Assembly (NCBI GenBank): GCA_003020945.1
Contig: PXRU01000028.1
Span: forward strand, 1-49,368
Length of the DNA: 49,368 nt
From: Halobacteriales archaeon QS_6_71_20
Lineage (GTDB): Archaea; Halobacteriota; Halobacteria; Halobacteriales; Haloferacaceae
Direction: 5' to 3'
Numbering within the stretch: the first letter of the stretch is position 1; every line of letters starts with the position of its first letter. Below are positions 44,999 through 49,368 of this stretch, piece by piece. The notes beneath the pieces were generated by a model. The model saw only the letters and a list, made by a program, of their open reading frames with translations. It made no database searches and was not told where the DNA came from. A program made the position numbers and the translations under genes.

Positions 44999-45025
44999 CG
45001 CGAGACGCGAGGCGCGAGAGAGCGA

Positions 45026-45202
45026 CGCGACCGAGCGCCTCGGACCACGGCGGCGAGCTCGCGGGCGAGCCGCCGACAGAGCCGCGCTGTATATAAGAGG
45101 GAGCAACGCGACCGAGCGCCTCGGATGACGGCGGCGAGCTTACGGGCGAGCCGCCGATCAAGCTGCGCTGCACTCTGGAGGGAGCACGCGACCGAGCGCC
45201 CG
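45026..45202. repeat. 81-bp tandem repeat with internal hairpins downstream of the ABC exporter
   Basis: Units begin at 45026 and 45107 and a partial third at 45187, each opening with CGCGACCGAGCGCC. Each full unit holds an inverted repeat CGGCGGCGAGC / GCGAGCCGCCG that could fold as a terminator-like stem. The first copy carries TATATAA near 45090, the second does not. They fill the 303-base gap between the exporter stop and the P450 gene, which holds no protein gene. Confidence 0.8.
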
Positions 45203-46666: not shown

Positions 46667-47224
46667 TCACCCCCGCAGCGGCAGCCGCGCGGCGATCTCC
46701 CGGTACTCGCGCGTCCATACCCCCAGTTCCTCGACCGTCCAGCGCGGCGGCTCGAACTCGCAGACCCGCTCGCGGAGGCGGTCGACGGCCGCCGTCGGGT
46801 CGCCGCGGCCGTCCCACCCGCGCGCGAGCGTGACGTGCGGGACGTACTCGGCCCCCTCCAGCCCGTCGACGGCGCCGAACTCCTCGACGAGCCGTCCGTG
46901 TACGTCGGCGAGGGGGTCGGCGTCCGCCGTCAGGTCGCCGCCCTCGACGGCCTCGACGGCGAGGTGGACGACGGGACCGTCGCCGAGGGGCGGGTTCTCG
47001 AAGGCGTCGACGCCGGCCACCCGGAGGTCGAACGGGGCGACGCCCGACAGCGCCGGTCGGAGGCGCTCGCGGATCCGGTGGAGGTCGTCGAGGTCGCGGC
47101 CGTCCAGCCGCTTCACGACGAGCGTGTGGCGGTCCCGGACCGACGAGAACGCCGACAGCGCCGGCTCCAGCGACGCCGCGAGCCGCCGGACGGTCGTCGG
47201 GACGGGAACGTTGACGCTGTACAC
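46667..47224 (-). CDS. 2'-5' RNA ligase/cyclic phosphodiesterase-like protein (2H superfamily)
   Basis: This 185-residue protein has the two His-containing motifs of the 2H superfamily, HTLVVKRL in the N-terminal half and HVTLARGW in the C-terminal half. Such proteins ligate or open 2',5' and 2',3'-cyclic phosphate RNA bonds; the cellular substrate is unknown. The start is GTG at 47224, giving VYSVNVPVPTTVRRLA, which matches where the conserved domain begins; there is no ATG in frame close by. It converges with the P450 gene (12 bases apart) and is divergent from a truncated membrane-linked sensor gene. Confidence 0.85.
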   Translation of the reverse strand: MYSVNVPVPTTVRRLAASLEPALSAFSSVRDRHTLVVKRLDGRDLDDLHRIRERLRPALSGVAPFDLRVAGVDAFENPPLGDGPVVHLAVEAVEGGDLTADADPLADVHGRLVEEFGAVDGLEGAEYVPHVTLARGWDGRGDPTAAVDRLRERVCEFEPPRWTVEELGVWTREYREIAARLPLRG

Positions 47225-47365
47225 GTTCAGCGGCTCCCCGTCGACCGGAGGGTTCCCAGCGATGTCGTCACGATCCGAGGCGAGTCTTCGGCGTCGAGCG
47301 CCATACCCCGGAGTGGTCAGTCGCCGACGAAAACCGTTTTGGGCCGTCCCCGGATGGTGGGGGAC

Positions 47366-47845
47366 ATGCGATGCTCCGCCGGCGCGGCACTGCTCGCCCT
47401 CCTCGTGGTTCTGGGCGCCGTCTCGCCGGCGATCGCGGCCGCGTCGACGGCCGGACCGTCCGCGACGGGAGTCGCGCCCGCCGGTCCGGCGGCCGTCGGG
47501 GCGGCCGCCCCCGCGGGCCTCGGCGGCGGCTTCGCCCAGACCGACGGCATCGAGGCCGACCGCGTCGTGCTCCGCGCGACGCTCGAGGACGACGGCGACG
47601 CCCGGTGGCGGATCGCCTACCGCATCGAACTGAGCGACGACAACACGACCGCGGCGTTCGAGAGCCTGCAGGCGGACGTCCGCGAGAACACCTCCGCGTA
47701 CGTCTCGCGGTTCCGGACGCGGATCGGGTCGACCGTCGCCGACGCGGAGAACGCCACCGGACGGGAGATGGCCGCGAGTAACTTCTCGATAACCGCGGAG
47801 CGCGACCCGTTCCCCACCAGCACCGACTACGGCGTCGTCGCCCTC
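47366..47845 (+). pseudogene. N-terminal part of a secreted/membrane-anchored haloarchaeal sensor-type protein, cut at about 47.84 kb
   Basis: The 5' end is intact: ATG at 47366, signal peptide GAALLALLVVLGAVSPAIAAAS, then a domain with ADRVVLRATLEDDGDARWRIAYRIELSD in outline, TAAFESLQADVRENTSAYV and ATGREMAASNFSIT, as seen in haloarchaeal proteins with this extracellular domain in front of a membrane helix and often a helix-turn-helix. Similarity ends at TDYGVV. After that the same strand is antisense of a flippase gene, so the remaining reading frame (to 48745) is accidental. The domain needed after DYGVV (usually a strand with xxFTWxGFA) is missing. Confidence 0.75.
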
Positions 47846-48580
47846 ATCAAGCAGGAAGGACACGACGTTACTCGCGGTGATCCACTTCCCGTAGTGGAGC
47901 AACTCCGCCGCCATGCCGGTGTCGAGTCCCAGCCGTGGGCGGTAGGGATGGATCACATAGGAGAGTCCTGTCCGAACGACGTTGGCGGCGACGTAGCCGA
48001 CCACGAGCGCCCACACGTCGCGATAGACGTACGCCCAAGCGATCGCGACGGCGAACCGCACGATCGAACCGCTCATTTTGTAGACGAACTTCTTGTGAAA
48101 CTGGAGGTCCTTGTCGAAGTACACGGTTCCCGGGTTCGCAACCCCGACGAACAACGGCGATATCGCGAGGAACTGCAGGAGCGGCACGACGCGTGGCTCC
48201 CCGAACACCCTCGCAACGAGGGGTGCCGAAGCCAGTATCAAGGCGGCGAGAACGAGCCCCCTCGCGATGCTAATCCCGAACACGGTGTCGAGATATCGAT
48301 CGACGTCGTCCTTCTCGTGTTGGATGAGTGCCTGCCTGATCCCGAGACGCGAAAAGCGCCTCATCCCCGCGAGGACGAGCAGCGCGATTCCCATGAGCCC
48401 GAAGTCCCGGGGCGCAAGCAGGTTCCCCAACACGATCAACACGATCAGTTGGAGCGAGCGCGTTCCGACGTTGATAGCGAACTTCCACGCGCCCGACCAG
48501 ACTGTTTGGGAGGTGAGATCGCCGTCCGGTATCAGGTGCGCGATCGCTGTCTGTACTCTCTGGGGAACCCAATTACGCAT
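47830..48580 (-). pseudogene. Oligosaccharide flippase (Wzx/MATE-like), N-terminal half only
   Basis: From ATG at 48580 the frame encodes MRNWVPQRVQTAIAH then about six membrane helices with the flippase pattern LQLIVLIVLGNLLAPRDFGLMGIALLV in outline, SRLGIRQALIQHEKDDVDRYL and GKWITASNVVSFLLDEGDDAVVG. This protein would flip lipid-linked glycans for S-layer glycosylation or capsule. Normal members run to about 480 residues, but similarity stops after 250 at DDAVVG, where the sequence becomes antisense of the sensor gene. It follows the sulfatase fragment by 12 bases, a pairing common in archaeal glycosylation clusters. Confidence 0.82.
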
Positions 48581-48592
48581 GGCGGGACCACG

Positions 48593-49024
48593 TCACCGAT
48601 AGCCGAGCGCTTCGAGGTGGCTATTCAGGTCCTGTTCGCCGAGACCGGTTCGGATTTCGGCCTTGGACTTTATTTCGTACTCGCGTTTCCCTTCGCCCGT
48701 CGTCTCCGCCCAAGGGACCCGTTTTATCACCGGGATCGGGACTGACCTCGGGTGACCGTACAATCCCCACTCGCCCAGCGCGTTCCCGTGATCCGACGTG
48801 ACGACGAAGACCGTGTTCTCCGGGTCGACGCCGTAGTACTCGAGCTTCTGCTGGACCTCCCGTGCGGTCGTCCGGGTGGAGACGACCAGCCGGTGGTCCG
48901 TGTCGATGTTGAGGAACTCCGTGTCGATCCGGTCGGTCTCCCCGGTGCTCGGATGGACGAGCAGCACGCCGGTCCCGCCGGGTATCGTCTCGGGGGAGCC
49001 CTCTATCGCGAGATCGTACTCCAT
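48593..49024 (-). pseudogene. Chimeric ORF: RecA-like protein N-terminus joined to sulfatase C-terminus
   Basis: The 143-residue frame begins at ATG 49024 with MEYDLAIEGSPETIPGGTGVLLVHPSTGETDR and STRTTAREVQQKLEYYGVD in outline, the N-terminus of a haloarchaeal RecA/KaiC-like ATPase family whose members are about 200 residues long. After about residue 72 the sequence turns into the C-terminus of a sulfatase: FVVTSDHGNALGEWGLYGHP, VPIPVIKRVPWAETTG and the ending SHLEALGYR. Neither half is complete, and no natural protein joins these. A TTTAAG box 25-30 bases before the ATG suggests the first part retains its own promoter. Confidence 0.8.
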
Positions 49025-49054
49025 ACCTCCCTACGGGCAGCCGTCGCTCTTAAA

Positions 49055-49368
49055 CCTCCAGTTCCGTTTGGCGCGAGCGATCCCGTGAGAATGACGATAG
49101 CTCCGTGCTCGTACACAGGATCGTCGATCGGTCGGACAACAGATTCGTCGGGGTCGGAGAGATCGAGGCTTTCGAGGTTTTCAGCCATCGTGTTGCCAGT
49201 CACTGTCATCACGTCGCCCTCGATCAATCCGGCATCTAACAGCCGCCGCAAAACGACTGGAATTCCTCCGTTCCGGTGAAGGTCCGTCATAACGAAGCCC
49301 CCGCTTGGACGAAGGTCACAGATCTGTGGTGTACGGTGACCGATCCGGTTGAAATCCTCGATGTCGAG
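49055..49368 (-). pseudogene. ilvD: Sulfatase-cluster-adjacent fragment of dihydroxy-acid dehydratase (IlvD), C-terminus missing
   Basis: The frame entering from the right edge reads DFNRIGHRTPQICDLRPSG, then MTDLHRNGGIPVVLRRLLDAG, VMTVTGNTMAEN, VRPIDDPVYEHGAIVILTGSLAPNG. This is the middle of IlvD, the Fe-S dehydratase of branched-chain amino acid synthesis. Normally GSLAPNGAVVK follows and some 180 more residues; here the similarity stops at GSLAPNG and the next bases belong to the promoter of the RecA-like gene. Its 5' part lies outside the window. It is therefore a broken copy, or a join of unrelated sequence. Confidence 0.8.

Follow-up and report, generated by a model that had tools for sequence, protein, structure and literature searches.

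The window, by which we mean the whole stretch of DNA that was analyzed, is the entire contig C28 (49,368 bases) of a parent genome assembled into 32 contigs (2.65 Mb, 93.9% complete). Toward its end it carries a gene for a LigT-like protein, a 2'-5' RNA ligase (46667 to 47302, minus strand, start approximate; Pfam 2_5_RNA_ligase2, E 2.6e-17), which is collinear in same-genus loci and served as a native anchor. After it comes a native DUF7345 sensor-type gene, of which the contig has the 5' half (47366 to 47842, plus strand; Pfam PF24036, E 5.2e-18, profile positions 2 to 84 of 132). From 47843 to the last base, 49368, the DNA is a patchwork of flippase/sulfatase, DUF7090 and ilvD pieces, with three junctions in 1.5 kb. 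Junction 1, at about 47842 and 1.5 kb from the end of the contig, had been described in an initial annotation as the meeting point of two broken genes in opposite orientation; junctions 2 and 3 were not mentioned there. Farther upstream, between the genes for an ABC transporter and a P450, we observed two 81-base tandem copies that are 80% identical (45016 to 45200), with a third occurrence of their 15-base core at 45186.

Contig C28 and the DUF7345 gene

Homology of the sensor-type gene extends to residue 159, which corresponds to base 47842, so the proposal of the initial annotation that this plus-strand gene is broken at the junction was borne out. The gene was matched in 36 of the 40 related genomes searched, and the same-genus genomes in that set (10 of 10) all match it as far as residue 159, with identities of 61 to 74%. 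Similarity at the DNA level to the ten same-genus loci ends at 47842, except in L018, where it ends at 47839. In all ten genomes the homologue extends beyond the break point into a C-terminal domain, which could be read in one frame in nine of the ten translations. The translation of locus L017 (genome G009, same genus) has an apparent frameshift in the downstream half of the homologue, after the conserved domain.

The initial annotation had also suggested a search for the missing 3' halves of both broken genes. For the DUF7345 gene this succeeded: the own-genome search recovered the 3' half as the first bases of contig C18 (C18:3-290 and C18:423-671, plus strand, 72 and 76% identical), and this part of C18 carries a DUF7343 winged-helix domain at the C-terminus (Pfam, E 3.5e-26). 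The search also gave a third, weaker hit (43%), to a paralogue on C22 that has its own complete frame. From a start between bases 1 and 15 to about 1.3 to 1.4 kb, C18 aligns directly downstream of the homologue of the window gene, in the same orientation, in all ten same-genus loci; in L018 the alignment is split into two pieces. In each of the ten loci, exactly 61 bases separate the positions equivalent to 47842 and C18:1. Because C18 starts directly downstream in every one of these loci and the 61-base spacing is constant, C28 and C18 almost certainly lie next to each other, with the break inside an otherwise normal gene.

The native chromosome would then read P450, LigT-like gene, DUF7345 5' half (C28 to 47842), 61 unassembled bases, and the rest of that gene from the first bases of C18. 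With an N-terminal DUF7345 domain in the window and a C-terminal DUF7343 domain on C18, collinear with intact relatives, the gene resembles other haloarchaeal DUF7345/DUF7343 sensor-regulators; it differs in being split across two contigs with 61 bases absent, and there is no sign of breakage in the organism. The palindrome CGTCGCCGGCGACG lies within the missing stretch in eight of the ten relatives, and we speculate that this might help account for a gap in coverage.

The tail of the contig

On the minus strand, directly beyond the native half-gene, lies an apparently foreign 5' fragment of a Wzx-type flippase gene (47843 to 48580; Pfam Polysacc_synt_3, E 1e-50, profile positions 1 to 202 of 293). 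Its homology runs through GDDAVV(G) to about base 47822, in agreement with the earlier description of a minus-strand flippase broken at the junction. The 3' half of the flippase was not found in the own genome, where the best match, on C16, was 20% identical over residues 3 to 239 of 251. The next piece, at 48593 to 48805 on the minus strand, was delimited by alignments to genome_contigs loci and, to judge by a motif, is presumably the 3'-terminal part of a gene of sulfatase type. This short piece had no Pfam match; its relatives in 13 genome_contigs loci were 44 to 61% identical over the matched parts in the best nine and 34 to 47% in the other four, and the named loci among them are haloarchaeal. 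The flippase and sulfatase-like genes are adjacent on one strand in the tail and are found no more than a few kb apart in islands carried by genomes G002, G003 and G027. For these reasons, the flippase/sulfatase-like stretch is probably a single natural fragment.

Junction 2, which alignments place at approximately 48805 to 48830, joins the sulfatase-like end in frame to a 5' fragment of a DUF7090 gene (48824 to 49024, minus strand; Pfam PF23365, E 6.4e-37, profile positions 1 to 73 of 192) that consists of the first 70-odd codons. The region upstream of DUF7090 meets ilvD at junction 3, approximately 49063 to 49067, since ilvD homology reaches residue 102 and a DUF7090 relative, L102, aligns to 49067. 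The ilvD fragment (49063 to 49368, minus strand; Pfam ILVD_EDD_N, E 6.8e-19) is cut by the end of the contig. Thus every recognized piece of the tail is incomplete, and the tail stops where the contig stops. The genome has its own copies of the last two genes elsewhere: an intact DUF7090 gene of 194 aa on C23, with about 65% protein identity to the window piece over 69 aa, and an ilvD gene on C1, a 626-aa open frame that is 53% identical to the window piece.

Composition changes at the first join. GC content steps from about 73% to about 62% across junction 1; in 250-base bins it is 0.69 to 0.81 in those wholly before the junction and 0.58 to 0.67 after it. GC3 was 0.93 to 0.97 in five native stretches, as against 0.81 for the flippase, 0.74 for the sulfatase and 0.63 for ilvD. 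The DUF7090 piece has a native-like GC3 of 0.925. Among the DNA matches listed, its best was to G373, which belongs to another family, f4 (84% over 231 bases); identity was 80% to the own copy and 83% to the same-genus genome G008, over 165 bases in each case. By these comparisons the tail appears to be made of foreign DNA, probably drawn from at least two sources; a foreign origin of the DUF7090 piece would rest mainly on the presence of the separate own copy.

We searched for donors at several levels. A DNA search across the order matched 363 of 392 genomes, and among the matches listed, all except those of the own genome fell in the DUF7090 piece; no donor of the flippase, sulfatase or ilvD piece was found among the matches listed from these 392 genomes. 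No relative of the flippase piece was confirmed in viral contigs. In a plasmid search, nine records matched in part, from Haloferax, Halomarina, Halomicrococcus and Salinigranum, none of them covering 80% of the query. The names of these records, like those of the loci related to the sulfatase-like piece, mark the window as haloarchaeal. Here the flippase fragment resembled genes annotated as 'lipopolysaccharide biosynthesis protein' on Halomarina, Halomicrococcus and Haloferax plasmids, with 64 to 71% DNA identity over parts, a likeness to haloarchaeal surface-polysaccharide islands. In the three Halomarina regions that were read, the flippase relative stands beside glycosyltransferases and aglF. 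The window, in contrast, has only a truncated flippase and the sulfatase-like end. The incomplete gene tables of the three Halomarina regions list no sulfatase next to the flippase.

Shared words at the junctions

The initial annotation had reported a 19-base word at junction 1 that fits both genes at once, which proved right to within about a base. We place a word of about 20 bases at 47823 to 47842; its native side is exact in six fetched loci, and its flippase side is deduced from protein homology. The overlap could reach up to 24 bases if the donor resembled Halomarina, which has GDDVVVGA. Donor DNA with the identical word on the flippase side was not found. An exact scan of genome_contigs for the junction gave 0 matches, in a collection that may lack the parent genome's own record. 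The own genome was also searched for a duplicate of the junction region; there was none, the eight other matches being query stretches of 25 to 68 bases. At junctions 2 and 3, alignments demonstrated no long overlap.

How often would such a word be shared by chance? We compared two sets of DNA on both strands, 208 kb from the own genome and 332 kb from other haloarchaea, and counted 23 isolated words of at least 20 bases as lying outside homologous stretches; 15 of the 23 were listed, and at least one of the 23 is a long homologous diagonal and was miscounted. Words of 20 bases in common between unrelated haloarchaeal loci are therefore common. The idea that the two genes were united by microhomology-mediated joining in a living cell, which the shared word had suggested, does not fare well, given that unrelated haloarchaeal DNA routinely shares words of this length and that the other half of the flippase was not found in the genome.

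A shorter word occurs at two of the joins. The 12-mer ACTACGGCGTCG is found twice in the window and nowhere else in it, at 47826 to 47837 on the plus strand (junction 1) and at 48826 to 48837 on the minus strand (junction 2), inverted and 1000 bases apart, with a mean of 0.01 expected from shuffles. The retrieved loci, 664 kb in all and partly overlapping one another, contain it 13 times by our count. Both copies in the window encode YGV, and codon bias may lie behind the recurrence. We reasoned that an invertible segment between the inverted copies is not the answer, as neither DUF7345 nor DUF7090 would be made whole by its inversion.

The presence of ACTACGGCGTCG at two junctions is not obviously predicted by a chance join, and it counts against an assembly error. 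It would suit a real population in which the DUF7345 gene was disrupted by tandem foreign fragments, inserted through short homologies by end joining of the filler-DNA type, with ACTACGGCGTCG as a preferred site at two joins. We regard such a population as highly improbable. Were the junction real, it would be a case of unusual multi-fragment end joining in archaea.

Origin of the junction

The initial annotation had left the choice between an inversion or insertion breakpoint and an assembly chimera. Inversion was rejected: the reciprocal junction, in which the two 3' halves would be joined, was not found, the 3' half of DUF7345 begins a contig, and that of the flippase was not recovered. The C18 continuation and the lower-GC tail with its three junctions instead favor the chimera, and we conclude that junction 1, lying near the end of its contig, is very probably an ordinary assembly chimera rather than a rearrangement in the organism. 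Several lines of evidence point this way. The 3' half of DUF7345 begins C18 in the same orientation, with a constant spacing of 61 bases in ten of ten relatives, so that the native continuation is present elsewhere in the same assembly. Three gene-breaking junctions fall within 1.5 kb, with all pieces truncated and the last of them ending at the contig end. Composition and affinity differ across the join, as seen in the GC step, in the GC3 of three of the four tail pieces and in the best match of the DUF7090 piece to another family. Separate copies of DUF7090 and ilvD exist elsewhere in the genome, and words of 20 bases are commonly shared by unrelated loci.

We propose that the native path was lost where the 61 bases went unassembled, and that the assembler would then have crossed over into other haloarchaeal DNA at the word of about 20 bases. 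Two further hops would have produced the 1.5-kb mosaic tail that ends the contig. The presumed maker of the junction is a join in a short-k graph; a word of about 20 bases, or up to 24, would suit a join at k of about 21, and the donors would be other organisms from the same sample. Published accounts are consistent with this. In a mock-community test, contig ends are reported to have been the invariable site of chimeric sequences, and a correlation is reported between high GC and failed reassemblies ('Chaos') (PMC8172020); joining of two organisms in assembled scaffolds is reported to occur, rarely (PMC7111523). The end of C28 shares with the chimeric ends of k-mer (de Bruijn) metagenome assemblies a differing composition and affinity and, at junction 1, a probable join at a short word. 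It differs from them in its three hops in 1.5 kb and in the 12-mer common to two junctions. Also counted against an assembly chimera were the lack of a proven long overlap at junctions 2 and 3, the failure to find donor DNA with the same 20-mer on the flippase side, and the native-like GC3 of the DUF7090 piece together with its 83% match to same-genus G008.

It is also conceivable that a foreign polysaccharide-type island containing recombined fragments entered the DUF7345 gene, so that the C28 tail is one end of a real insertion and C18 lies beyond the other. The proximity of flippase and sulfatase-like genes in the islands of G002, G003 and G027, the lower GC of a type seen in islands, and the start of C18 within the same gene, as expected of the far side of an insertion, all fit this reading. 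However, C18 starts with native sequence and not with an island end, so the two ends of an island joined to the halves of the target gene were not seen. Moreover, two of the genes represented in the tail occur elsewhere in the genome as single, separate genes, all recognized pieces of the tail are truncated, the flippase 3' half was not found in the genome apart from the 20% match on C16, and no mobile-element gene was recognized in the tail among the Pfam matches. On balance, we consider a genuine insertion very unlikely. A chimera could instead predate assembly, if molecules were joined during amplification or library preparation and the assembler then reproduced them correctly. Template switching could likewise account for several fragments meeting at short homologies in 1.5 kb, but joined molecules usually make up only a small fraction and could replace the native path only where its coverage had been lost; we consider this origin highly improbable.

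If the tail is an assembly chimera, as we prefer, it makes false genes, namely a 637-aa open reading frame that runs from the flippase start to the LigT-like gene and the DUF7090-sulfatase fusion, and it makes an ordinary regulator look disrupted. Users of the genome would do well to set aside 47843 to 49368 and to treat C28 and C18 as neighbours about 61 bases apart.

Other contig ends

We profiled GC at both ends of all 32 contigs and read the open reading frames by eye at seven low-GC ends (the starts of C15, C32, C7 and C12 and the ends of C9, C21 and C26). The low-GC starts of C12, C15 and C32 look by eye like natural gene borders, with recognizable products. Chimeric tails were not shown to be a general feature of the assembly, and the starts of these three contigs lend no support to that view.

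Three further matches between contig ends were observed. The first 129 bases of C26 (L148, 1-129) match the last 129 bases of C27 (L180, 2372-2500), inverted, at 96%, and this shared terminal repeat possibly marks the two as neighbouring contigs. The start of C17 (L140, 195-1513) and the end of C26 (L179, 824-2148) are 80% alike over 1.3 kb, possibly as paralogous genes. Finally, the end of C15 (L168, 2117-2500) matches the end of C21 (L174, 1433-1842) at 88% over 412 columns.
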